From: Treponema sp.
GTDB taxonomy: Bacteria; Spirochaetota; Spirochaetia; Treponematales; Breznakiellaceae
Reading direction: 5' to 3'
DNA: 36,805 bases
Assembly: GCA_031288975.1 (NCBI GenBank)
Contig: JAITQK010000207.1
Span: forward strand, 1-36,805
The number at the start of each line of letters is the position of its first letter. The stretch's first letter is position 1. A model generated the notes under the pieces. That model searched no databases, was not told the DNA's origin, and was given only the letters and a program-made list of their open reading frames with translations. Shown one piece after another: positions 5,343 to 27,971 of this stretch. The position numbers and the translations under genes are program-made.

Positions 5343-7835
5343 ATGTGGGGTGTTGTCATAAGGCTCAAAAGTACGGTGAAGTTCCCGGTGAAACGGCTGT
5401 CTAGCCTACTGTGGGCAGGGTTATTGTATGTTGGCGTGGTTTCTTATGGGCCGGCCCAAGAGGTGGAAGTGTTTCCCCAAATAGGGCATAGCGGATGGGT
5501 AACCAGCGCTGCTTACAGTCCAGATGGACGGCGGATTGTTTCTGGATCCGTGGATAATACGGTCAAGATATGGGATGCAGAGAGTGGCCGGGAACTGCGG
5601 ACCTTCGCGGGGCATAGTGATTGGGTTAATGCGGTTATGTATAGCCCGGATGGACGGTTTATTGTTTCCGCTTCTTCGGATAATACCATCAAGGTATGGG
5701 ATGCGGAGCGGGATGCGCCCCGGACCTTTGCGGGCCATACTAAGGCGGTAAACGCGGTGGCTTACAGTCCTGATGGCCGCTGGGTTGTTTCCGGTTCTCA
5801 TGATAAGACCATCAGGATATGGGATGTCGAAAGCGGCCGGGAACTGCGGACCCTCCTGGGCCATACCGGCGGGATAGTTGCGGTGGCTTATAGCCCTGAT
5901 GGGACGCGGATCGTCTCAGGTTCGGTGGATCATACTATCAAGGTATGGGACGCGGTAAGTGGCCAGGAACTGGGAACCTTGTCCGGACATACCAAGGAGG
6001 TAAACTCCGTGGCCTATAGTCCTAATGGGAAGTGGATCGTCTCCGGTGCTGCGGATAATACGGTCAAGGTTTGGGATACGGAGCTGGGAGTATCCAAGAC
6101 CTTGACCGGACATACCAATAGCGTCAGTTTTGTCAGGTACAGCCCGGATGGGAAGTGGATCATCTCTGGCTCCGGGGATAATACGATCAAGGTCTGGAAC
6201 GTGGAGAGCGGATCATCCCGGACCTTGGCGGGCCATGTATCCCTGGTAAGCACGGTGGGGTACAGCCCGGACGGACGGCGGATCGTCTCTGGTTCACGGG
6301 ATAATACGCTCAGAATATGGGATCTGGAGCGCGGGCCTTTGCAGACCCTGGGGGGGCATACGGGCTGGGTCAGTTCAGTGGCCTATAGCCCTGATGGGCG
6401 CTGGGTTGTTTCTGGGTCAGTGGACAGTACCGTTAAGATATGGGATGTGGAGCAAGGATCCTCCCGGACCCTGGGAGGGCATACGCAGTCGGTATACGCC
6501 GTTGCCTATAGCCCTGATGGGCAGTGGATCGTCTCTGGCTCTGCGGATAATACCCTCAAGATATGGAATGTGGAGCGCGGATCCCCTTGGACCCTGGTGG
6601 GCCATACGGGCTGGGTCAGTTCGGTGACCTACAGCCCCGATGGGCGGCGCATCGTCTCTGGTTCTGGGGATAATACCATCAAGGTCTGGGACGCGGCAAA
6701 TGGCCAGGAACTGCGGACCCTGGCAGGCCATACGGGCTGGGTCAGTTCGGTGGCCTACAGTCCTGATGGGCGGCGGATCGTCTCTGGTTCACGGGATAGG
6801 ACCATCAAGGTCTGGGATGCGGAGAGCGGCCAGGAACTGCGAACCTTGACCGGCCATACTAAGGGTGTAAACTCCGTGGCCTATAGTCCTGATGGGAAGT
6901 GGATCGTTTCTGGTTCCGGGGATAACGCCATTAAGATATGGAACGCCGAGAGTGGGCAGGAATTGCGGACTCCCCTTTCAGGGTACACGGACCTGATAAG
7001 CTCTGTGGTGTACAGCCCGGACGGGCAGCGCCTAGTCACCGGTTCTGGATATACTAATACCCTTAAGGTGTGGGACCTCGATAGCGGGAAGGAACTCAAG
7101 ACCCTTACCGGGCATACCTGGAATGTAAACTCCGTGGCCTACAGTCCCGATGGCCGGCGGATCGTCTCTGGTTCCTGGGATGGTTCGATCAGGATCTGGG
7201 ATGGAGACAGCGGTACTGAGCTGCTGCGCTGTATTGCCTTTATTGGTGATGGTGAATGGGTCTGCATTACCCCAGAGGGCTACTATAACGCATCTCCCAA
7301 GGGGGATGAGCACCTCAATGTCCGGCGGGGGAATATGGTGTATTCTATAGATCAATACCGTTCTATCTATTATAAGCCTGAGTTGATTGCCACCTCTGTG
7401 GCGGGGAATACCCCTGCCCGTCCTGCTATCGAAATCGACGTCCCTACCGATGCCGCTTTTGCTCCGCCGGTGGTGGTTATCCGCAGCCCTGAACACAAAA
7501 GCACCCTTCCGCCAGGAGTGGGGCGGGTTTCTGTGGCAGTTATCGACAAAAAGCAGGGGCTTACGAACATTAAGGTGCTGGTGAATGGAAAGGTCATCAG
7601 GACTGAAACTATTGCGGTACCTGCCGAATCTGAGACCGGAGAGCGAGAACAGCGGATGGACTTTGTTTTTCCGATTACCTTTGCCCTGGGAATGAGCCAT
7701 ATTGAAGTGCGGGCAACCAATGAGTATGCCGAGGGGCGGGACAGTGTGGATGTTACCATTGATTCCAATGCGGACCCTGCGATAGACCCTTCACTCAAGA
7801 GTGATAGTATATTATACGAGCGTGTTTCACCATAA
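5343..7835 (+). CDS. Exported protein with 14 WD40 repeats and a C-terminal Ig-like region
   Basis: 830 residues. The start at 5343 has a good ribosome site (GATGGAGG). A basic stretch and hydrophobic segment (RLSSLLWAGLLYVGVVSYGPAQ) form a probable signal peptide, so the protein is likely exported. From about residue 48 to 630 there are 14 WD40 units of 41-43 residues. Each has GH near the start, a YSPDG turn, a SGS.D segment and a WD or WN end, which suits two seven-bladed propellers. Next come a conserved DGEWVCITPEGYYNASPKG stretch, a YSIDQYRSIYYKPELI block, and an Ig-like strand region (VSVAVIDKKQGLTNIKVLVNG). In relatives known to me this architecture often continues into a caspase-like (C14) domain, but here the protein stops. 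Such propellers are binding scaffolds; the ligand is unknown. cobT-like starts 9 bases after the stop. Confidence 0.85.
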   Translation: MWGVVIRLKSTVKFPVKRLSSLLWAGLLYVGVVSYGPAQEVEVFPQIGHSGWVTSAAYSPDGRRIVSGSVDNTVKIWDAESGRELRTFAGHSDWVNAVMYSPDGRFIVSASSDNTIKVWDAERDAPRTFAGHTKAVNAVAYSPDGRWVVSGSHDKTIRIWDVESGRELRTLLGHTGGIVAVAYSPDGTRIVSGSVDHTIKVWDAVSGQELGTLSGHTKEVNSVAYSPNGKWIVSGAADNTVKVWDTELGVSKTLTGHTNSVSFVRYSPDGKWIISGSGDNTIKVWNVESGSSRTLAGHVSLVSTVGYSPDGRRIVSGSRDNTLRIWDLERGPLQTLGGHTGWVSSVAYSPDGRWVVSGSVDSTVKIWDVEQGSSRTLGGHTQSVYAVAYSPDGQWIVSGSADNTLKIWNVERGSPWTLVGHTGWVSSVTYSPDGRRIVSGSGDNTIKVWDAANGQELRTLAGHTGWVSSVAYSPDGRRIVSGSRDRTIKVWDAESGQELRTLTGHTKGVNSVAYSPDGKWIVSGSGDNAIKIWNAESGQELRTPLSGYTDLISSVVYSPDGQRLVTGSGYTNTLKVWDLDSGKELKTLTGHTWNVNSVAYSPDGRRIVSGSWDGSIRIWDGDSGTELLRCIAFIGDGEWVCITPEGYYNASPKGDEHLNVRRGNMVYSIDQYRSIYYKPELIATSVAGNTPARPAIEIDVPTDAAFAPPVVVIRSPEHKSTLPPGVGRVSVAVIDKKQGLTNIKVLVNGKVIRTETIAVPAESETGEREQRMDFVFPITFALGMSHIEVRATNEYAEGRDSVDVTIDSNADPAIDPSLKSDSILYERVSP
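5484..7232 (+). repeat. Tandem array of 14 WD40-encoding units of about 123-129 bp
   Basis: The coding sequence consists of 14 consecutive units. Many share long near-identical stretches, for example the units starting near 6358, 6598 and 6727 all encode GHTGWVSSV followed by YSPDGR. DNA-level similarity this strong implies recent unit duplication or gene conversion, so the copy number may vary between strains. Confidence 0.85.
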
Positions 7836-9601: not shown

Positions 9602-12151
9602 ATGGTAATGGCTGAAAGTATCTCCCTTGATCAGGACGTATCAAAGCTTCCTTGGTTTCCTGAATATGGTGATCCAATAGAGGTGCTTAATCTATCGGTT
9701 CGTTCTACCAATGCCCTTATTCGGGCGGGGATTACCACGGTTGACAGGCTGTTGAATACGGACAAGAAAATTCTGTGCGATATTAGAAATTTAGGGGAAA
9801 AAAGCATTGCAGAAATCCTGGGGTGTCAAGAAAAACTTGTCAAGGCCCTGGCGGCGATTGATGCTCATAGCCCTGATAATCTCGCGAAAAATCGTGAGCG
9901 CTTAGAAAAACTGAAAAGCGCCTTTGCGGACATACCTGCGCAGCGGATGAATCACTCCCTTCACCGGTATTTGGCTTCATGTGCTGGGGAAGATATTATC
10001 GGTATTCTTGAGGAATTTAATGAATTATTAGCGCCGCTTACAACAATCGCTGAACTCCCGTCGGTATTTGAAAGTATTTGCACCAGCAATCGATCAACGG
10101 ATCGCTTCTTGTCTATACTCAGCATCTTATCTATTAATATGTCTTCAATGATTCAAGATATATTTAATACGGTCTATAGTGATTCCAGGAATAAGCGTGC
10201 GTACCTTGTGTTGTGTCAGCGTTCTGGAGGGATGACGCTTCAGGAAATCGCAGAAAAAATGGGAATAACCAGGTCCCGGGTACAGCAAATTGAAACCAAA
10301 GGATTGGATAAGCTGCTCAAGTATCTGGGTAATATAACGGTTGATTTCTTTTTGTTTATCAGTGCGGAACATAACGGTGATTATATCATAACCGTATCGG
10401 AACTGTGTGGTTATTTAGGTAAGTTTGAGTACATGAATCTGTTTCTCTATGTGGCAAAAATGACCTCTATGGGGAATACCTTCATCTATAACAGGGACCT
10501 GGGTGCGTTTTGCTATAAAGGGGCTGTACACAATTTTGAGCATCTCAAAGAAGTGGTAAAAAACCTGCCTTTTATCATTAACAAAGAAAAAAAAGATATG
10601 TTCCTCGCCGATATAAGTAAGGCTCATGAGCTCCCGTTAAAGGCAGTTGCTATTGAGTTTTATTATACCTACCGGTTAACGGGGAGCGTCTACTATCGGG
10701 GAAAGTTGATCTTAACCCAGGTATACGATTATATTTTAGATACCTATTACCCATCAGGCATCAAATTGTATGATGATGGTACGATAAACTCTTTTCGTAA
10801 AAAAGTTACTGAGATTTTCGGCGATATAGACCTGCCGGTAAATAACCGGGCGATTGACGCACGCCTGGGTGATATTGCGATACTATGTGAGCAGGGGACG
10901 TATATCCACCCCCATCATATTCAGATTGAGCGCGCCTTAATTGATGAGGTTTGTGTCTATATTATGAATTCCGGGCGGGTTGCCTTTTCGTTTAATGAAT
11001 TGTTTGAAACCTTTAAAGACAAACTGCTTGTGGAGAGCAATGTTCATAATAAATACTTTTTTCAAGGGGTACTTAAATATTATCTGAGTGATAAGTTCTT
11101 TTTCACCAGGGGTGTTATTGCAAAAGAGGAAGGAGCAGACATTATCGAAGACTTGGAAACGCTTATCCGGGAACGGGGGGAGATTCATAAGTCTGAGATT
11201 TTCGTGGAATACCCTGGGATTACGGATATCATGTTTATCATGAGAATAAACGCCAATAAAAACATCATATCCATCGGTAATGGTTCCTATATGCATGTGA
11301 ATAAACTGAAAATCATGCCCCGGGATTATCATATCAGAGAGGTACTGGAACAGCAGACCAAAAAGTTGCCGGTATCCTCGCGGAAAGTCCTGGAACTCTT
11401 AAAGGTATCATCCCCTCGATTTTTAACCCGTAATGATATAACGCATCACGAAAAATTGTTCGGGATTCTCAAGTATATGTTCGATACCGAATTTATCTTC
11501 TCCCGTCCTTATATTGCCAAATTAGGAACCGAAGAGATTTCTAATATTAACATCATTAAACAGTATCTTAAATCTTACGATTCAATAACCCTGGCGGATC
11601 TCACCCATTTATGTAATGAGCAGCGGGTGCGTTTCTTTTCACCTAAGATATTGATTAAAGACTTGAATGACGAATTCTTACGCATTGATAGTGAAACACT
11701 GGTACGCAGTGTGTTTAAACCTGATGAAGAGATCATTACCGAGATAGGCCGTATACTGCTTGAACGGATGAAGGTCAAGGGCTATCTGGTGGCGTCAACT
11801 ATTGGAGATTATATTGTATTTCCCCATATTCCCTTTCAGTGGAACGCTTTTGTGCTGAGGAGTTTGGTCGAAAAATACATGCATGATTTGATACACATCG
11901 TTGATATTCCTACTACCGATATCTATGCGATAAGTACTATTTTTGTTGACCCCATTCTTAAGGTCGAGAACTACGAGGCTTTGATTCAGTATATTCTTAA
12001 GACTGAACATACTAAGGCGCCTTTTAAGATCATCCGTAATGCGGTTGATTGGCTTCGCCAAGAGGGATTATTTATCGGTAATCCTCCTAAGTGCTTACTG
12101 GATGGCAGCATTATCTGTCTTGACAAATTTGGAAAAATAATAGTAAAGTAA
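9602..12151 (+). CDS. RNA polymerase alpha-CTD / sigma-70 region-4-like fusion protein, unknown function
   Basis: 849 residues. Residues about 23-75 match the RpoA C-terminal domain: EVLNLSVRSTNALIRAGITT and IRNLGEKSIAEI carry the helix-hairpin-helix signature that binds UP-element DNA and activators. Residues about 205-240 (GGMTLQEIAEKMGITRSRVQ followed by QIETKGLDKL) match sigma-70 region 4.2, which reads -35 DNA. The remaining 600 residues have no domain I recognise. They look mixed alpha/beta with several short helix-rich modules, resembling repeated winged helices. There is no signal peptide or membrane segment. It has no RpoA assembly domain and no sigma region 2, so it is neither a subunit nor a working sigma factor. 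The ATG at 9608 fits the AGAGGA site slightly better than that at 9602. It might redirect RNA polymerase or bind DNA alone. Confidence 0.85.
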   Translation: MVMAESISLDQDVSKLPWFPEYGDPIEVLNLSVRSTNALIRAGITTVDRLLNTDKKILCDIRNLGEKSIAEILGCQEKLVKALAAIDAHSPDNLAKNRERLEKLKSAFADIPAQRMNHSLHRYLASCAGEDIIGILEEFNELLAPLTTIAELPSVFESICTSNRSTDRFLSILSILSINMSSMIQDIFNTVYSDSRNKRAYLVLCQRSGGMTLQEIAEKMGITRSRVQQIETKGLDKLLKYLGNITVDFFLFISAEHNGDYIITVSELCGYLGKFEYMNLFLYVAKMTSMGNTFIYNRDLGAFCYKGAVHNFEHLKEVVKNLPFIINKEKKDMFLADISKAHELPLKAVAIEFYYTYRLTGSVYYRGKLILTQVYDYILDTYYPSGIKLYDDGTINSFRKKVTEIFGDIDLPVNNRAIDARLGDIAILCEQGTYIHPHHIQIERALIDEVCVYIMNSGRVAFSFNELFETFKDKLLVESNVHNKYFFQGVLKYYLSDKFFFTRGVIAKEEGADIIEDLETLIRERGEIHKSEIFVEYPGITDIMFIMRINANKNIISIGNGSYMHVNKLKIMPRDYHIREVLEQQTKKLPVSSRKVLELLKVSSPRFLTRNDITHHEKLFGILKYMFDTEFIFSRPYIAKLGTEEISNINIIKQYLKSYDSITLADLTHLCNEQRVRFFSPKILIKDLNDEFLRIDSETLVRSVFKPDEEIITEIGRILLERMKVKGYLVASTIGDYIVFPHIPFQWNAFVLRSLVEKYMHDLIHIVDIPTTDIYAISTIFVDPILKVENYEALIQYILKTEHTKAPFKIIRNAVDWLRQEGLFIGNPPKCLLDGSIICLDKFGKIIVK

Positions 12152-12169: not shown

Positions 12170-12757
12170 ATGAATAACAAATCGCAGCGTGCCGACCATC
12201 TGGTATGGAAGGAAGAGAGCCGTCGGGAAGTGTTCAAATGCCCTATTTTTTCACTCCGGGAGACTTCTTCCCGGTCCCCTGATAACGAGGTCCGGGTCTT
12301 TACCGTGATTGATGCCCCGGATTGGGCTATCGTGGTGCCGGTAATAGAAACAGACCAGGGCCGGGCATTTGTCATGGTACGCCAGTGGCGTCATGGGTCC
12401 CAGGAACTCAGCCTGGAATTTCCCGGCGGGGTCTTTGAAGCGGGAGAGCGTGCTGCAGAAGCGGCAGCGCGGGAACTGCGGGAAGAAACCGCATATACCC
12501 CAGGAAAAATCATCAAACTGGGGGAGATGAGTCCGAATCCGGCGATCATGTCAAACCATGTGCACTTCTTTTTAGCAGAGGAATTGGAGTATCTGGGAAA
12601 TCAGGATTTAGATGATGATGAATATGTGGATGTAGAACTGGTACCCATTGAAACGGTTTTCCAAAAGATGGGTACACCCCCCTATATACACGCCCTCATG
12701 GGTTCGGCCCTTGCCCTCTACACGACCTATCGGGAAAAGCCGAACCCCTTGGTTTAA
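12170..12757 (+). CDS. Nudix hydrolase, ADP-ribose pyrophosphatase type
   Basis: 195 residues. The Nudix box is intact (GGVFEAGERAAEAAARELRE followed by ETAY), with an alanine in place of the usual late glycine. Upstream is VVPVIETDQGRAFVMVRQWR, typical of ADP-ribose or sugar-nucleotide pyrophosphatases, and the segment PNPAIMSNHVHFFLAE follows as in that group. Expected reaction: metal-dependent cleavage of a nucleoside diphosphate linked to another group, for example ADP-ribose to AMP and ribose-5-phosphate. It is cytoplasmic. It starts 18 bases after the previous gene and its stop overlaps that of the convergent LysM-like gene by four bases. Exact substrate is not determinable. Confidence 0.9.
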   Translation: MNNKSQRADHLVWKEESRREVFKCPIFSLRETSSRSPDNEVRVFTVIDAPDWAIVVPVIETDQGRAFVMVRQWRHGSQELSLEFPGGVFEAGERAAEAAARELREETAYTPGKIIKLGEMSPNPAIMSNHVHFFLAEELEYLGNQDLDDDEYVDVELVPIETVFQKMGTPPYIHALMGSALALYTTYREKPNPLV

Positions 12758-13734
12758 CGGATCGGGGTATAGGTAAGCTGGGCATCCCACATGCCCTGGC
12801 GGACCTCACCCTGGATACTGGGAATATCCAGAATGGTACCTGGAGGCAGGACGTTGGGGTTATCGGGCTGGGGTAACTTCGCCTTATTCGCGTTATAGAG
12901 AATGCGCCATTTTGACGGATCTCCGTAGGCCCAGCTCCTGCCTGCAATATTCCAGAAACAATCCTTCGACACATTCCAGGGGCGCACGATATAGCGCGCC
13001 GGAAGAATCGGTGGTGTATTTTCCACAACCGGACGTACCGGCGGCGGAGCGGCAACCTCTACCATCACCGATGCGGGAGGCGGAGCTTCCTGAAGGGATG
13101 CCAGGGTCGTCATAACCTGCCGAGCAGAATCCATGGCGCCGTTCCAGTTTTCCGATGAACGAGCAATCTGCGCCCGTTCATATAAAGCCTGGGCTTGTCT
13201 GTATTCCGCAGGATACCGCCACAGGGCATCTATCGACACCGCCCAGTCAAGCCGGTTCTTAGCAGAGGCCAGGGCGTCATCGGTTTCCTTGATCTTCAGT
13301 TGGAGCGCCACATATTCATCAGACAAGCGGGCATACCGGATCGCCTCTGCCGCATATCTGGTGGACTCATCATAATCACCATCTTCCAGGGATTCCTGGG
13401 CCAGGTTGGTCAATCTGACACTTTCAATGAAATAGGTGTTATTCCGTATGTTTTGAGGAATCCCCTGAGAAGCGTCTGAATGAGCCGCATCCGCAAAGGC
13501 CGCTATGGGGGTAAGCACAGAGGACTCTGAGTCATCCTCTATCTCAAACTTCCACAAATAGGATGCCACATCATTAAACCCTGGCAACCAGAGACCAGAA
13601 TCAAAAGAAGATTCGTTCCGTTCAGTGGGTACGGGTCCAATAAACACCGGTTCTGGCAATTCACTCTGGGCGAATACCATTCCTATTCCAAAGACTACCA
13701 TTACTATGAGTAATGCTATACCACGATTCATCAT
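12754..13734 (-). CDS. Exported helical-repeat protein with C-terminal LysM-like domain
   Basis: 326 residues. A signal peptide is clear (RGIALLIVMVVFGIGMVFAQ). The middle (about 85-215) is alpha-helical, with tetratricopeptide-like spacing of A, Y and E residues (LAQESLEDGDYDESTRYAAE). A proline-rich linker (APPPASVMVEVAAPPPVRP) leads to a C-terminal LysM-like module: YIVRPWNVSKDCFWNIAGRS, then WRILYNANKAKLP and LPPGTILDIPS. LysM modules bind peptidoglycan or related glycans, so it is probably periplasmic and wall-attached. The ATG overlaps the stop of the upstream lipoprotein gene by four bases (ATGA), indicating that the two products are made and probably work together. Confidence 0.8.
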   Translation of the reverse strand: MMNRGIALLIVMVVFGIGMVFAQSELPEPVFIGPVPTERNESSFDSGLWLPGFNDVASYLWKFEIEDDSESSVLTPIAAFADAAHSDASQGIPQNIRNNTYFIESVRLTNLAQESLEDGDYDESTRYAAEAIRYARLSDEYVALQLKIKETDDALASAKNRLDWAVSIDALWRYPAEYRQAQALYERAQIARSSENWNGAMDSARQVMTTLASLQEAPPPASVMVEVAAPPPVRPVVENTPPILPARYIVRPWNVSKDCFWNIAGRSWAYGDPSKWRILYNANKAKLPQPDNPNVLPPGTILDIPSIQGEVRQGMWDAQLTYTPIR

Positions 13735-14936
13735 ACGCCTCCTTCAAAAACAAGTTCTGCTTTTTTTGCGTTTTCACCGCTTTCAAGCATCTTTTGTTCA
13801 GCCGTTTTAACCGCCTGTTTAGCCACGAGTAATTTCACCTCCGCCGCTTTACAGATTTCCAGAAACATGGTTTCCGATTGAACATAGAGCCTAGCAGCTT
13901 CATCGTATTTTTCCGACCGCAAGGCACGATCGGCCCGCTTATACACCGTGTTGGCCGCGTCGTATTCGTTCCGTACTGCCACATCAGCCCGCAGATCCAG
14001 GGCGGCCTGACGTTCCGTACTCGCACCAACCCCTTTATCCGCAGCAAAAGACACCCATCCAGTCCAGAGCACTGCGGTATACCCTGCCAAAGCTTCCTGA
14101 GCATTATCAAGCGCCTGGCCAGCCCGCCTGGATTCATAATTCCTTACCGCCGCTGCCATGTCCACTTCTGCTTTTTGAAAATTATTAGGATCATAGACTA
14201 TAAAACCACGTTTTACAATTTCCTGCCGTACTTTATATACATCCGCTTCTGTTTTCAGCACCTTATACATATCAAGGGCCAGAAAAACAGAAATTGCCGC
14301 AGGATAGTAATCAGCAGTTTCGTATTGCGCCACCGCTTCCGCAACTATCCGATCCACTCCTAAGAGATGAGCCGGAGATGCATCTTTAATGCCCGCGTTA
14401 ATCGCCACGGTTCGGGCACTTATGATTTCATTCTCCCGGTCCTTATAATAGAGGGGCAGACAACTACGAGCAAGGGCATCATAGGCATCGGCAACAGTAT
14501 TATACAACAACACCGCATCCTTAACCTCTCCCAGGGTAGTTCTCGGCAGCTCTGCAAAGGCCACATACTGAGACTCCGCCCGTTCCCAGGCTTGCGGGAT
14601 ATACTCAGGCCCCTCAAAATCAATGACAAGTTTCCTGCTGGTCTGCATCCGCGTAATTGCTACATTTAACGCATCCAGTGAAGCCTGGTTCGGCTCCCCC
14701 TGATCAAGATCCACAACCGGTTCAGGCGGTGTTTCAACCAGAGTAGATGACAACAACGGCACTGCTTCCGGTGCCAACACCACTTCTACCGGTTCCTCTG
14801 CCAGTGCAGGCTGCGCTTCATCTGCGCTTGATACCAACGGTGATGGTGTTTCATCCGGCGGAGGACCACTCGCACAAGATAGAAGCAAAAAAAAGACCAT
14901 TCCCCATAAAACAGGTATTAGTTTTTTACACTGCAT
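13731..14936 (-). CDS. Helical-repeat lipoprotein
   Basis: 401 residues when started at the ATG at 14936, which lies 6 bases after AGGAG. A TTG six bases earlier would overlap that site and is rejected. The signal sequence ends in a spirochaetal-type lipobox (FFLLLSC), so the cysteine is expected to be lipidated. A long linker rich in P, E and V follows. Residues about 90-390 are almost purely alpha-helical, with repeated A/Y/E patterns (AIRMQTSRK-like helices, QALDNAQEALAGYTAVLWTG, YKRADRALRSEKYDEAARLY) reminiscent of TPR units. Its role is unknown. Together with the LysM-like partner it suggests a peptidoglycan-to-membrane complex. Confidence 0.8.
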   Translation of the reverse strand: MQCKKLIPVLWGMVFFLLLSCASGPPPDETPSPLVSSADEAQPALAEEPVEVVLAPEAVPLLSSTLVETPPEPVVDLDQGEPNQASLDALNVAITRMQTSRKLVIDFEGPEYIPQAWERAESQYVAFAELPRTTLGEVKDAVLLYNTVADAYDALARSCLPLYYKDRENEIISARTVAINAGIKDASPAHLLGVDRIVAEAVAQYETADYYPAAISVFLALDMYKVLKTEADVYKVRQEIVKRGFIVYDPNNFQKAEVDMAAAVRNYESRRAGQALDNAQEALAGYTAVLWTGWVSFAADKGVGASTERQAALDLRADVAVRNEYDAANTVYKRADRALRSEKYDEAARLYVQSETMFLEICKAAEVKLLVAKQAVKTAEQKMLESGENAKKAELVFEGGV

Positions 14937-15046
14937 AGACAACTCCTTAGCAAATCATTTATAATGAACTTAAGTCCAAGCTTAAAATATTTATTAATTT
15001 ATTATCGACACATTTTCGGAAAAAACATATGATTTATTAGGATAAT

Positions 15047-16540
15047 TTATATTTTTAACGCACTTAAAGACCTAATTGCTTCCTGGGCCATGCGGTCGCA
15101 GCGTTCGTTAAACGTATCCCCTGCATGACCTTTAACCCATTCCCAGGTAATGGGAAACGCCGTCGCCAGCGCGTCCAAACGTACCCACAGTTCCTTGTTT
15201 TTCACCGGCTGTTTACCAGTAGTCATCCAGGCTTTTTTCTTCCAGGCATGGATCCAGATACTGATCCCCTTTTGCACATATTGAGAATCAGTATAAACCG
15301 TTACATTCCCGGGGGATAGCTTTAACTCGACTAAGGTCTCCAGGGCGGCAATAACTGCCTGTAATTCCATGCGGTTATTGGTAGTGTACTTCTCGGCGCC
15401 CCATTTTTCAATAATGATAGTAGGCTTATCCTGAGGATCTTTATCTCCGATGATCACATAGGCCCAGCCCCCTGGCCCCGGATTACCCGCACAGCCACCG
15501 TCGGTGTATATCTTTATGTCCCCAGTTTCAGGTCTCGGTACATCCTTAAGGGGTGTGGCATGATCCTGGGCTATATCTTGAACCGCCTCATGATCCTTAA
15601 AAATCTGCGCTTTAAAGAATAAACCCGTTGGGGTTATTGCCAGGCCCCCGGCGGCAGTTTCCTTCAGGCTCCCCGGCATGGTATCCCCAATCTCTTTCAT
15701 GGCAGAGACCACCTCATCAAAGGGTATCACGCTCTGAATGCCGGCAAGGGTCAAATCAACCGCAAGCACCGCGTTTATCGCTACAAAGGCATTCCGCTTG
15801 ACACAGGGCACCTCCACCAGGCCGGCCACCGGATCACAGGCGAGACCCAGGGAATTTTTGAGGGAAAGGGCTGCTGCGGAAAAGCAGTCCCCCAGGCTCA
15901 ACCCTTCCAGGTACCCCAGGGCAGAGGCCGCCATGGCCCCGGCAGCGCCACATTCCGCCTGACAGCCCCCCTCAGAACCGGCCAGGGTTGCCCGCTGGGC
16001 AATGAGCACCCCTGCGAGGCTGGCGATTAAGAAGGCACCGCGTACCGGAGCGGGGAAAGGCTGCGAAGGAGTGGGAGGGAGGGGGAGTAAGGAGGAGGTG
16101 TTTGAAGGTGTTTTCCGTGCCGCCCTCGCGCCAGAGGCGTGACTGTCCCACCAGGCCCAAATGGTCCCTGGTACGATGCCGCTGGAGCCGGCAGTGGGGA
16201 AGGAAACGATCTTGCCACCGCAGGCGTTCACCTCATTGATGGACAGGGAATAGGCAATGATCCGGCGGCAAAAGGGATCCTGCATGAGTCCCCGGTCTGA
16301 GGCGGCAAAAGACACTGCCCCACCCTTGGTAAGACCGGAACGGGAATGTTGTGGGGTTTCAAGCCCCTTGATGAGGGATCTTCTGGTAACGGCGATACGC
16401 CGATCAAGCTCGGTAAGGATACGCGCTTCAGAAGTCCCGGAAATGAAGGCTTCCCGTTTAACCGCATAATCCTCGGCAGTAATGTGTTCAGCTTGCAGTA
16501 TGCCCTCAAGCTCAGAAAATGTGTGAAACCTGAATTTCAT
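15047..16540 (-). CDS. L-serine dehydratase alpha chain fused to ribonuclease HI
   Basis: 497 residues in one uninterrupted frame. Residues 1 to about 330 are the iron-sulfur L-serine dehydratase alpha domain (FPTAGSSGIVPG, GSEGGCQAECGAAGAMAA, LACDPVAGLVEVPCVKRNA), which deaminates serine to pyruvate with the beta subunit. Residues about 341-497 are a complete RNase HI: YTDGGCAGNPGPGGWAYVI, NNRMELQAVIAALE, VYTDSQYV, and VKGHAGDTFNERCDRMA supply all four acidic catalytic residues plus the histidine. The dehydratase part carries an extra stretch of about 20-25 residues rich in P, S and T after GTIWAWWDS, and has TAGSSG where relatives usually have TAGSCG. The start overlaps the beta-subunit stop by four bases. 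No stop or ribosome site separates the domains. Confidence 0.88.
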   Translation of the reverse strand: MKFRFHTFSELEGILQAEHITAEDYAVKREAFISGTSEARILTELDRRIAVTRRSLIKGLETPQHSRSGLTKGGAVSFAASDRGLMQDPFCRRIIAYSLSINEVNACGGKIVSFPTAGSSGIVPGTIWAWWDSHASGARAARKTPSNTSSLLPLPPTPSQPFPAPVRGAFLIASLAGVLIAQRATLAGSEGGCQAECGAAGAMAASALGYLEGLSLGDCFSAAALSLKNSLGLACDPVAGLVEVPCVKRNAFVAINAVLAVDLTLAGIQSVIPFDEVVSAMKEIGDTMPGSLKETAAGGLAITPTGLFFKAQIFKDHEAVQDIAQDHATPLKDVPRPETGDIKIYTDGGCAGNPGPGGWAYVIIGDKDPQDKPTIIIEKWGAEKYTTNNRMELQAVIAALETLVELKLSPGNVTVYTDSQYVQKGISIWIHAWKKKAWMTTGKQPVKNKELWVRLDALATAFPITWEWVKGHAGDTFNERCDRMAQEAIRSLSALKI

Positions 16541-17310
16541 AGCGCCTCTCTGGTAAGGCCCGAACCTTCTAAAGCCGGAACCTGTATGACCTGGTAGATC
16601 GGGGGCAAGCCCTGGATCCCCTTGACGACTGAAGGGGGAATGGGACCGTCGGTTTCAACCACCAAAAGGGCCTCATCCCCCTTTTCCTTGCGGTGACTAG
16701 AGGTGGCGGCGATATTGATGTGCCCGGCGGCGAGTAAACGGGACACTTCCGCGATAACCCCAATCTCATCATGGTGTGAAACCAGGATAGCCTCCAGTTC
16801 TCCTGAAAGTTCTACCTGATATCCGTTGATTTCATCAAGACGGATGGACCCTCCGCCAATGCTGGAGGCCCGGATGACCAGGTGCTGCGGTCGCGGACTT
16901 TGTCCCGCCATAAGCTCCTGGGCGGCCGCTCCCCCGGAAGACTCACCGAAAAGTTCAAGGATAAGGCTATTCGGATGCCAGGATGGGGGTAATACGGGAA
17001 CCGCCTCGATAAGCACGGGAAATCCCTTTCCTGCGGCCTGCAATGCGCTGAGGAGCCGCTGCCCCTGGAAAAGCCGTTCATCCTCAGGAGGAATACCCAG
17101 CAGCCCGGCGCTCACCGCATCCCCTGAACCGTGGCCTTTCCAGGTAGCGGCCAGGGAACCGTAAAAGCGAACCAGGGCCTTTTGCGGGGCGGAACCGAAC
17201 ATCTTCCGGGTTAAAAAGGCTATCCGGGCGACTCCGGCAGTATGAGAACTGGAAGGCCCTATCATCACGGGGCCGAATATCTCAAATAAGGAAACTTGTT
17301 CTTTAGGCAT
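16537..17310 (-). CDS. sdaAB: L-serine dehydratase beta subunit
   Basis: 257 residues. The opening SLFEIFGPVMIGPSSSHTAG is the signature of the serine dehydratase beta domain. The C-terminal 75 residues form an ACT domain (AILVSHHDEIGVIAEVSRLL followed by AAGHINIAATSSHR), expected to bind an amino acid for control. It pairs with the alpha chain encoded immediately downstream (ATGA overlap) to form the iron-sulfur enzyme that makes pyruvate and ammonia from L-serine. Length and architecture are normal. It is cytoplasmic. An extended -10 promoter sits just upstream, and the gene is divergent from groEL. Confidence 0.93.
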   Translation of the reverse strand: MPKEQVSLFEIFGPVMIGPSSSHTAGVARIAFLTRKMFGSAPQKALVRFYGSLAATWKGHGSGDAVSAGLLGIPPEDERLFQGQRLLSALQAAGKGFPVLIEAVPVLPPSWHPNSLILELFGESSGGAAAQELMAGQSPRPQHLVIRASSIGGGSIRLDEINGYQVELSGELEAILVSHHDEIGVIAEVSRLLAAGHINIAATSSHRKEKGDEALLVVETDGPIPPSVVKGIQGLPPIYQVIQVPALEGSGLTREAL

Positions 17311-17475: not shown

Positions 17476-19137
<1,662 letters not shown>

Positions 19138-23179: not shown

Positions 23180-25165
23180 GTGGAAAAAGCACAGCAACGT
23201 AATAGCTATCTTATCACGGAACCCATAGGCAGACTCCTGCCCAAATTTGCGATTCCGTGCGTCATCTCCCTAATCATCTCATGCCTATACAACATTGTTG
23301 ACCAGATTTTCGTCGGAAACGGCGTCGGCTATCTGGGCAATGCGGCAACCGGAATCATTTTCCCGATTACCGTTGTGGGATGGGGTGTTTCCCTTTTGTT
23401 CGGTGACGGTGCGGCGGCTTATCTTAGCCTGTCGCAAGGGCGCGGAGACACAAAAAGTGCGGGTGTTGCAATCGCCAACAGCATCCTGTTTTCCATTTTG
23501 TCCGGCATACTGATAATACTGGTCTGCTATCTTTTCGGGGACCACATTCTTTATGCCCTTGGTGCAACGGAAGCCACCATCGGCTTAACCCGTGATTACG
23601 GATATATCATCTTTATAATGATACCGTTTGCGATGGTACAATTATCATTAGCATCCATCATTCGCTCGGACGGCAGCCCCCGCTACTCAATGATGACGAT
23701 GGGCGTTGGCGCCATCATAAACATTGTGTTTGACCCGATTACCATTTTCGTATGGGGCTGGGGAATCAAGGGTGCCGCTTATGCAACGATTTTTGGCCAG
23801 CTTGTCAGCTTTGTTTTGTGCGTTCTGTATCTTCGCCGGAGCAAAACCTTCCGTATCCGCTTATCGGATTTCAGACCGGACTGGAAAGCGATTAGGCAGG
23901 TGCTTCCCCTGGGCGGCTCCAGCTTTCTCACCCAGATTTCCATCGTCATCGTAACGATTGTAACCAACAAATTGCTGGTATCCTATGGCGCGTCTTCCCT
24001 GTATGGCCCGGACATCCCACTGGCCGCTTTTGTGGTCATTATGAAGCTATTCCAGATTGTACTGTGTATTGCCATCGGTATTGCGGCTGGTGCGCAGCCG
24101 ATCATCGGATTCAATTACGGGGCGAAACGATATGACCGCGTGAAACAGACTTTTCAATACATCATACTATGGACATGTGTTATATGCGCCGTTGCCACGG
24201 TTTTGTTCGAGAGCATACCATATACGTTTATCCGGCTGTTTGGCGCTGACGGAGAGCTATACACAACCTTTGCGATCAAGTGTCTGCGTGTTTATCTATC
24301 CCTTATTATCCTGACCTGTATTCAAAAAGCCTGCGCGATTTTCCTTCAGTCAATCGGGAAGGCAACCGCGGCTATCCCTCTGGCAATGATTAGGGATGTC
24401 GTTTTTCTGATTGTCTTTTCAGTTGTTTTCTCGGTATCTATGGGAGTAACCGGCATTTTCTGGGCGGCCCCCGCAGCGGATATTCTTGCGATAATCATTA
24501 CTGCCGTTGTCCTTTTTCGCGTATGGAAACAGCTTGATTTCGCAAAAGCAGAAGATACGCTTGTATCCGATGTTCCAACGCTCAAACCTTCCCGGAAAGG
24601 CGTGATTGTCGCAATCTCCCGCGAACACGGCTCTGCGGGAAAATACATCGGGCAGCTTGTTGCCAAAAGATTAGATATTCCTTTCTACTATAAAGAAATG
24701 ACCGCCCTTGCCGCGCAGGAGAGCGGTCTTGCGAAAGAGTTCGTGTCCGATCTCAATGCCAATTCCCCGTCCGTTATGCACGAGTTGTATTTGAGTACCG
24801 ACGTGGCTCGGCAGGCTATTATCGCACAGGAGAAAATTATTCGGAAGATTGCGGATAACGGTTCCTGCGTGATTGTGGGACGCGCCGCCGATTATGTATT
24901 GCGCGATTACGAGGATGTTGCCCGTATTTTCATTCACGCTCCACAGGCGTACCGGATAAAAAATGTGATGAAAACATACGGCGACACCGAACAGGAAGGC
25001 AAAAAGAGCATTGTGCGTTCCGATGCGGCGCGTGCAGCCTATTATAAAAATATTTCGGGATTGGAATGGGCAAACACGCGGCAATATGATCTGTGTATCA
25101 ATAGTTCTATCGGCGCGGAAAATACAGCCACAGCGATTTATGACTATATAAAAAGCAGAAGTTAA
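23180..25165 (+). CDS. MATE-family efflux transporter fused to a cytidylate-kinase-like domain
   Basis: 661 residues, GTG start 23180 with GAGGT 7 bases upstream. Residues 1 to about 455 are a MATE transporter with about 12 membrane segments (IGRLLPKFAIPCVISLIISC, LYNIVDQIFVGNGVGYLGNA, IIRSDGSPRYSMMTMGVGAI, GAQPIIGFNYGAKRYDRVKQ). MATE proteins export drugs or metabolites using proton or sodium gradients. Residues about 473-661 form a cytosolic cytidylate-kinase-like domain (VIVAISREHGSAGKYIGQLV with a P-loop-like turn, CVIVGRAADYVLRDYEDVAR, then RIFIHAP). Similar fusions occur in Firmicutes, as I recall; what the kinase-like part phosphorylates is unknown. The gene lies between two 30-bp repeats inside a sugar-acid locus and may be a horizontal insertion. 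Confidence 0.88.
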   Translation: MEKAQQRNSYLITEPIGRLLPKFAIPCVISLIISCLYNIVDQIFVGNGVGYLGNAATGIIFPITVVGWGVSLLFGDGAAAYLSLSQGRGDTKSAGVAIANSILFSILSGILIILVCYLFGDHILYALGATEATIGLTRDYGYIIFIMIPFAMVQLSLASIIRSDGSPRYSMMTMGVGAIINIVFDPITIFVWGWGIKGAAYATIFGQLVSFVLCVLYLRRSKTFRIRLSDFRPDWKAIRQVLPLGGSSFLTQISIVIVTIVTNKLLVSYGASSLYGPDIPLAAFVVIMKLFQIVLCIAIGIAAGAQPIIGFNYGAKRYDRVKQTFQYIILWTCVICAVATVLFESIPYTFIRLFGADGELYTTFAIKCLRVYLSLIILTCIQKACAIFLQSIGKATAAIPLAMIRDVVFLIVFSVVFSVSMGVTGIFWAAPAADILAIIITAVVLFRVWKQLDFAKAEDTLVSDVPTLKPSRKGVIVAISREHGSAGKYIGQLVAKRLDIPFYYKEMTALAAQESGLAKEFVSDLNANSPSVMHELYLSTDVARQAIIAQEKIIRKIADNGSCVIVGRAADYVLRDYEDVARIFIHAPQAYRIKNVMKTYGDTEQEGKKSIVRSDAARAAYYKNISGLEWANTRQYDLCINSSIGAENTATAIYDYIKSRS

Positions 25166-26302: not shown

Positions 26303-26824
26303 GTGCGAAAGATTGTGGCGACGGTTTGTATGACAGCCCTCGTCATCGTGGCGGGAGGGTGTCAGAAAAAAGACACTGGATCAGCGGCGGCCCCGGGGGG
26401 AAAGGCCACCTTCGGTATCGGCATGACGGTAAAGGACCTCAGTAATCCGACCTGGTCCGCTACTTGTCAGCGGATAGACGAACTGGTTAAGGCCGATGGC
26501 GGGACCTTCACCTTTGTCGATTGTCAGGGCAATCCAAACAGCCAGATTCAGCAGGTGGAAAACTTTATTTCCAATGACGTGAATGTCATCATCATTCAGG
26601 TCGCTGAACCGAACGCCCTGGAAAACGTCTTGTCCCAGGCCCGCAAAGCTGGCATCAAGGTGTATTGCTGGGACAATGACATTGAAAATTCCGATGTCAA
26701 CTGGCTAATCAGCAATTACGAGCTGGGCCGGGTCATCGGTACTCAGGCGGCGGAATGGATCAACGCCAAATTCCCTGGGCATGGTCCTGATGAACGTTAC
26801 CCAATATATGCAGATGCTTATTAA
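26303..26824 (+). pseudogene. Sugar ABC transporter substrate-binding lipoprotein, truncated by deletion
   Basis: 173 residues, about half the usual length of RbsB-type binding proteins. The lipoprotein signal ends LVIVAGGC. The first lobe is intact (FGIGMTVKDLSNPTWSATCQ, FVDCQGNPNSQIQQVENFIS, VIIIQVAEPNALENVLSQAR, GIKVYCWDNDIENSDVNWLI). After AEWINAKF the reading becomes unrelated and stops within 16 residues. The bases beyond encode the tail of an ABC permease in another frame. In the usual order binding protein, ATPase, permease, one deletion of roughly 3 kb explains this. The GTG start has no ribosome site. It cannot support transport; expression is doubtful. Confidence 0.85.
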
Positions 26825-26945: not shown

Positions 26946-27971
26946 CTACACGGTATAGGACGCGGCGAATAAATCCGTCTGTTTTTGCAAACGCAATTCG
27001 GTAACTTTTACCGCCATTGCCGACTGGTCAACGCCTATCCATTGCCGGTTTAGTCTATCCGCCACGGCAATGGTTGTGCCGCCACCCATAAAGGGGTCAA
27101 GTACCACATCGCCTTCATTACTTGCCATTTTGATAATGCGTTCAAGGAGCGCTTCCGGTTTTTGGGTAGGATAACCGATACGTTCGCTGGATTGTGATTG
27201 TACATTTTGAATATCAGTCCAGATATTTCCAAGTAATTGGCCTTTTTGTTCATTAAGATACCGTTTTAAGGCAGGACGTTTGGAATAATCATAATTTCCC
27301 TCGCTATCAGCCGGATAGTATATGTTCCCTTCATCATGCAGTTTTTGCATTGTTTCTTTTTCATATCGCCAGCCTTTTGCGGGATACGGAAACCCCTGCC
27401 ATTCGTACATCATATTCGGGCGTGGATTTGGGCTTGCCATATCTCCTAACCGATATAATCCTTTTCCATCACCATCATCATATTTATAAAAACTGTCAGT
27501 ATATTTCTCATCTAAAGAGCCATAAATTGGATTGTAGATACAGGTATCCGATTTTGTATAATACCAAATTGTATCGGTAAGTACAGCAAGCTTATTTTTA
27601 GCGTCATTATGTGAATTATGCCGTTGCCAAATAATCTCGCCGTGAAAATTATCCATACCAAAAATCTTATCTAAAATATCCACCCGGATATAAGCGTTTG
27701 CGTGCCAGTCGCAATGCAGGAAAATACTACCAGCCGGCTTTAATACACGGTGCATTTCTGTAACCCGTTCCTTGAGCCACGCGATATAATGGTCAATACC
27801 GCCCGCCCAGCGGTCCTGAAAACTGCGGACTTCCCCAGCATCTCCCCAGATAACCTCGTAATTGCGGTTGCTGAAAAACGGCGGGTCAAGGTAAATAAGG
27901 TCTACGCTCTCGCTTTCCAGCGTTTTGAGGGTTTCGAGGTTGTCGCCGAGAATAAGGCGATTCACAAGCAT
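26946..27971 (-). CDS. Amino-type DNA methyltransferase (beta class), probably orphan
   Basis: 341 residues. Motif IV DPPF is at 29-32 and motif I DPFMGGGTT at about 292-300, the order of beta-class N6-adenine or N4-cytosine methyltransferases. GYPTQKPEALLERII precedes motif I as usual. SAM is the methyl donor; the target DNA site cannot be read. No restriction endonuclease is adjacent, so it may be solitary or the survivor of a lost system. The ATG at 27971 has no clear ribosome site but lies 6 bases after the stop of a tiny proline-rich gene that has a strong one, so translation is probably coupled. Confidence 0.92.
   Translation of the reverse strand: MLVNRLILGDNLETLKTLESESVDLIYLDPPFFSNRNYEVIWGDAGEVRSFQDRWAGGIDHYIAWLKERVTEMHRVLKPAGSIFLHCDWHANAYIRVDILDKIFGMDNFHGEIIWQRHNSHNDAKNKLAVLTDTIWYYTKSDTCIYNPIYGSLDEKYTDSFYKYDDGDGKGLYRLGDMASPNPRPNMMYEWQGFPYPAKGWRYEKETMQKLHDEGNIYYPADSEGNYDYSKRPALKRYLNEQKGQLLGNIWTDIQNVQSQSSERIGYPTQKPEALLERIIKMASNEGDVVLDPFMGGGTTIAVADRLNRQWIGVDQSAMAVKVTELRLQKQTDLFAASYTV

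Follow-up and report, generated by a model that had tools for sequence, protein, structure and literature searches.

An in-frame fusion of the serine dehydratase alpha chain to RNase HI in a genus of the Breznakiellaceae, probably derived from operon neighbors by loss of a stop codon

A single uninterrupted reading frame in a Treponema sp. genome of the spirochaete family Breznakiellaceae joins the alpha chain of an iron-sulfur L-serine dehydratase (SdaA) to a complete RNase HI (RnhA). The window, i.e. the whole stretch of DNA that was analyzed (36,805 nucleotides), comes from a draft genome of 2.8 Mb and 79.9% completeness (G000), and the fusion recurs in all three genomes examined of the genus. 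It is a known kind of event with a new gene pairing: no published account of a serine dehydratase-RNase HI fusion was found in the literature. The reading that we favor, and consider probable, is that two operon neighbors were joined by the loss of a stop codon, that the joined gene was fixed by drift or by the convenience of co-expression, and that its product is a bifunctional protein with independent domains.

The preliminary description of this DNA had reported an in-frame fusion with exactly these limits (Table 1) and had credited it with all the RNase HI catalytic residues, and both statements hold. The frame encodes one protein with two Pfam domains: SDH_alpha (PF03313) at residues 30-301 (204.9 bits against a cut-off of 26.4; E 2.3e-60) and RNase_H (PF00075) at residues 342-489 (147.2 bits against a cut-off of 25.8; E 4.7e-43). 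The second half also exceeds the cut-off of the NCBIfam ribonuclease HI family (NF001236; 180.6 bits against 160). In an alignment to E. coli RNase HI its catalytic residues correspond, in the order of Table 1, to D10, E48, D70, H124 and D134, which we take to be the active-site residues of that enzyme, and the substrate-handle stretch WIHAWKKKAWMTTGKQPVKN is preserved. Judged by family scores and catalytic residues, this half is an RNase HI with a predicted hybrid-cleaving activity. On the dehydratase side, each of the three cysteines has a counterpart cysteine in the alignment to 4rqo, the Legionella enzyme, where they are presumably the ligands of the iron-sulfur cluster. The match to the NCBIfam L-serine ammonia-lyase alpha family (TIGR00718) reaches 237.7 bits against a cut-off of 243.2 and is split in two by a Pro/Ser-rich insertion, which is variable in length and differs in each relative.

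Table 1. Coordinates within the window of the fused gene, its parts and the neighboring genes
Feature	Coordinates	Strand	Remarks and basis
Fused gene sdaA::rnhA	15047..16540	-	497 codons + stop, ATG start, no internal stop; ORF call, Pfam/NCBIfam
Serine dehydratase alpha domain	15593..16540	-	Residues 1-316; cysteines C193, C235, C246; Pfam, alignment, model
Pro/Ser-rich insertion within the dehydratase domain	16046..16144	-	Residues about 133-165; variable; translations
Hypervariable linker	15518..15592	-	Residues 317-341; predicted disordered; without in-frame ATG/GTG/TTG; sequence, model
RNase HI domain	15050..15517	-	Residues 342-497; catalytic D347, E392, D418, H472, D482; Pfam, NCBIfam, alignment, fold search
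sdaB, serine dehydratase beta chain with ACT domain	16537..17310	-	Overlaps the sdaA start by 4 bases
groL	17494..19137	+	Divergent; upstream flank, conserved among relatives
403-aa protein, no Pfam match	13731..14942	-	Downstream flank, conserved
326-aa protein, no assigned function	12754..13734	-	Downstream flank, conserved
Nudix-like protein	12170..12757	+	Convergent; downstream flank, conserved among relatives

The adjacent beta chain matches the Pfam profiles PF03315 (48.1 against a cut-off of 26) and PF01842 (ACT; 30.7 against 27), and scores 156.8 against the cut-off of 161.2 for the NCBIfam family TIGR00719. The pair is like the two-subunit iron-sulfur L-serine dehydratase SdaAB in having an alpha chain with three conserved cysteines beside an ACT-bearing beta chain, but unlike it in that the alpha chain is extended at its C-terminus by RNase HI and contains the Pro-rich insertion, and in that both chains fall slightly below their NCBIfam equivalog cut-offs. 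In the same way, the nuclease half is comparable to the product of a stand-alone rnhA in all its catalytic residues and its substrate-handle region, as aligned to E. coli RNase HI, but differs in lacking a start codon of its own in the window and in being always an extension of SdaA in the three genomes of the genus.

These three are draft metagenome genomes that are 80-90% complete (G000, G001 and G002), and their fused proteins share 76-94% identity. The preliminary description had proposed a look for the same fusion in related genomes: it is present in G001, at 76% identity to the window protein over residues 1-492, and in G002, at 94% over residues 1-475, where the contig ends and the final 30 residues, along with the expected downstream genes, sit on a separate contig. 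Searches of 195 genomes of the family, 390 of the order and 392 of the phylum (overlapping sets, the last searched under a strict limit, with 9 of the 392 matched) gave no further uninterrupted two-domain protein among the matches listed. Named genome contigs gave 580 related loci; of the 80 best, 13 have both genes, which share a single frame only in L055, the locus of G002. Thus, among the matches listed in the genomes searched, the fusion is restricted to one genus. The Breznakiellaceae are described as the family holding most of the termite-gut spirochaetes (PMC13067680), and a termite-gut origin of the fused genomes would follow from this placement.

Within this one bacterial family the two genes form a series in which they stand apart, spaced, overlapping, one stop codon away from each other, and fused. 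Among the matches listed, 26 genomes of the family have a close full-length sdaA match: three carry the fusion, 13 have rnhA directly behind sdaA as a separate gene, six have it about 2.1-2.3 kb downstream (G018, G028, G063, G064, G065 and G164) and four have it elsewhere (G158, G078, G029 and G092). The gap between the two genes measures 88-158 nt in ten genomes of genus g10, with nearer in-frame ATGs also possible in G088. G142 and G147 have the genes overlapping at GTGA (-4), with rnhA in a different frame, and short overlaps of this type are described as an arrangement that couples translation (PMC10666635). At the junction of G157 the sequence is TAA-AAT-ATG, i.e. rnhA follows at +3 nt in the same frame, with a lone in-frame TAA between the domains. 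In the spaced arrangement of G028 the intervening genes encode a Gfo/Idh oxidoreductase and a DAHP synthase; in the Gracilinema-type layout (Gracilinema being a member of the Breznakiellaceae in the NCBI taxonomy) two genes likewise separate sdaB-sdaA from rnhA, beside groL. The flanks common to the window, G028 and G164 are groL upstream and, downstream, genes for two proteins with no assigned function and one for a protein that we take to be Nudix-like from its sequence. In G145, G138 and G058, from other genera, groL and rnhA are accompanied by the same downstream genes, but sdaBA is missing. The preliminary description had regarded identically flanked, separate neighboring genes in relatives as telling against the fusion. 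Such genes do occur in sister genera, but they point to its origin and leave it standing, because it is present in three genomes of the genus whose linkers differ.

G157 shows some peculiarities of its own. The relative of the 403-aa protein encoded there matches in about ten successive stretches (L135:5764-9999). The genome, among the intermediates the nearest to the fused state, also has a second rnhA, a point against the favored explanation, accompanied by its own copy of the block of the 403-aa protein, on another contig (L136:241-5166), and this extra block reflects either a duplication or a mixture of strains.

Phylogenetic trees place the fused proteins in one clade for both halves, with values of 98/95 for SdaA (29 rows) and 99/96 for RnhA (38 rows). 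This, together with the stepwise arrangements, is explained by one fusion event in the ancestor of the genus. A horizontal or chimeric origin of either half was rejected, as both cluster with the family's own genes, with one fused clade per tree. The preliminary description had offered an accidental read-through fusion as one possibility, and in view of the stepwise junctions of the relatives this emerges as the best explanation, in the form of a stop-loss between neighbors. In the proposed course of events, rnhA would have become the immediate downstream neighbor of sdaA within the sdaB-sdaA operon of the genus ancestor, and loss of the stop codon between them, along with that of the separate rnhA start, would have created one reading frame. 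The resulting single polypeptide would be an alpha chain that still pairs with the separate beta chain and bears RNase HI on a floppy tail, with both domains folding and working independently and the nuclease made only together with the alpha chain and in equal amount. The union would then have been fixed by drift or simple co-expression rather than for a joint reaction. From the genomic evidence we infer that the protein is expressed as a single chain, that both its domains are active, that it assembles with the beta chain and that the union is neutral. Deletion of intervening genes was considered as the cause, but it is indistinguishable from relocation of those genes, since the DAHP synthase family persists at another place in G000. 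Searches of the junction for a terminator or promoter gave matches at chance level only.

Both domains are under purifying selection while the linker drifts. In comparisons among the three fused genes, dN/dS (NG86) amounts to 0.165-0.19 in the dehydratase part and 0.196-0.263 in the RNase HI part; the linkers of G000 and G002 give 0.652, and that of G001 is unalignable. Five pairs of separate genes, used as controls, give 0.146-0.226 for the dehydratase and 0.069-0.218 for RNase HI, so that constraint on the fused RNase HI is perhaps slightly weaker than in genus g10, which could mean relaxed constraint. The linkers, delimited by the boundaries used for dN/dS, are 25, 31 and 38 codons long, all in frame. 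That of G001 contains a tandem repeat with a 15-base unit in about three copies (L004:1986-2031), a likely route by which its length changed in frame. The selection that the preliminary description had suggested as keeping the fusion is seen, in dN/dS, on each of the domains rather than on their union.

Several alternatives concern the question of whether the two domains are truly made and kept as one chain. An artefact of assembly, frameshift or sequencing might be suspected given that all three genomes are draft metagenome assemblies and the G002 contig breaks within the gene. It was nevertheless rejected, and we give it almost no credence, as the junction is common to three genomes with 6-24% protein divergence and different in-frame linkers, and the flanks agree on both sides; the sequencing error that the preliminary description had imagined, hiding a stop between residues 325 and 341, is contradicted by the same open but differing linkers. 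Free RNase HI might instead be produced, also or mainly, by initiation inside the fused gene, for which one could cite an in-frame ATG ahead of the RNase HI core in G001 (2 codons before it) and G002 (13 codons before it), and a G-rich stretch ahead of codon M288 in the window gene. Against this, the window gene has no in-frame ATG, GTG or TTG between codons 288 and 362, the latter being already past the first catalytic aspartate, and the M288 stretch also encodes the conserved end of the dehydratase. By comparison, in a survey of 43 distinct rnhA loci, three of them fused, all 40 separate ones examined have an ATG, GTG or TTG near the motif. The predicted ribosome-site energies in G001 (-1.5) and G002 (-3.8) are weaker than in G157 (-11.5) and most of g10 (-8.4), but loss of the ribosome site is only suggestive and not decisive as proof that there is no separate start, because several separate rnhA genes have sites as weak as those of the fused genes. 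A further consideration is that each of the three fused genomes has one RNase HII and one RNase HI match, the latter inside the fusion. The second rnhA that the preliminary description had thought worth seeking was thus not found in them, although at 80-90% completeness it could be missed. Since a stop in the linker would cost the window species its only known RNase HI, and since the second domain is constrained, the nuclease would appear to be made as part of the fusion, and internal initiation strikes us as quite unlikely.

Cleavage after translation, also raised in the preliminary description, would have the polypeptide cut in its linker to release two ordinary enzymes. An AlphaFold2 model (28 rows, single chain; mean pLDDT 82.6, pTM 0.62) has a confident helical dehydratase domain and an RNase HI fold, connected by residues 317-339 with pLDDT under 50, and a linker with such predicted disorder, and under no constraint in its sequence, could be cut by housekeeping proteases. 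Such a linker, however, being unalignable between G000 and G001, leaves no room for a conserved cleavage motif; cleavage is compatible with the stop-loss origin, but on the whole we regard it as unlikely. All 50 matches listed in a fold search of the model are RNase HI structures, including that of E. coli, with TM up to 0.87 to 0.91 of target length for solved RNase HI; no dehydratase structure is among these 50, and the assignment of the dehydratase fold consequently rests on the sequence matches. The disordered linker and the intact RNase HI fold of the model speak against a dependence of the nuclease on the oxygen-sensitive cluster, which the preliminary description had raised as a possibility. 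An adaptive union, in which tethering of RNase HI would couple R-loop removal to serine breakdown or to that cluster, gains something from the persistence of the fusion in three species despite a dS of about 0.67, and from related genera that keep both genes adjacent or overlapping, including the -4 overlap of the type described as coupling translation (PMC10666635). Yet the fusion occurs in one genus only and the genes are apart in four close relatives, both among the matches listed, its linker is unconstrained, and the best studied analogue is reported to have lost its partner domain with hardly any effect (PMC7466739); we accordingly hold an adaptive union to be very improbable. Still slighter is the chance of a working unit in which these anaerobes place or control the nuclease through the dehydratase complex, with hybrid removal tracking their redox state or use of serine. 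There is no positive sign of functional coupling beyond the persistence of the fusion, which leaves it unsupported, and the joining itself probably does little.

The analogue in question is the fusion of RNase HI to a CobC-type acid phosphatase in Actinomycetales (MSMEG_4305, Rv2228c), which is comparable in its unrelated metabolic partner, the purifying selection on both domains and the variable linker (PMC7466739). For MSMEG_4305, removal of the partner is reported to have hardly affected cells and the linker to be highly variable, and the authors conclude that the fusion was fixed by drift (PMC7466739). It differs from the present case in that RNase HI is N-terminal, the partner is CobC and M. 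smegmatis has a further rnhA (PMC7466739). The family of bifunctional RNase H/acid phosphatases (NF005567) scores the window protein at 35.3 bits against a cut-off of 326, through the RNase H part only, and there is no acid phosphatase domain. Fusions born of deletions are a recognized source of new frames when the material between genes is lost (PMC12803068), but, unlike in that description, two whole genes rather than fragments are here joined end to end.

The case calls for caution in two respects: toward the rule by which fused genes are taken to act jointly, and toward annotation that names a fused protein after just one of its halves. The fusion could further serve to test whether a large N-terminal partner is tolerated by RNase HI in cells.

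Some further genes of the window deserve mention. A second fusion (23180-25165, +) unites within 661 aa a MATE transporter and, behind it, a cytidylate-kinase-like domain. The 849-aa protein encoded at 9602-12151 (+), whose gene adjoins that of the Nudix-like protein in G002 as well, carries a sigma-70 region 4 helix-turn-helix at about residues 202-238 and, close to the N-terminus, an RNA polymerase alpha C-terminal domain, the remainder being without a Pfam match. A periplasmic protein of the sugar-binding type (26303-26824, +) is shortened to 173 aa, its match ending halfway through the Pfam profile; after it comes an N6/N4 DNA methylase gene in the opposite orientation (26946-27971). Finally, 14 WD40 repeats are matched in an 830-aa protein (5343-7835, +); WD40-repeat proteins are unusual in bacteria and known in spirochaetes.
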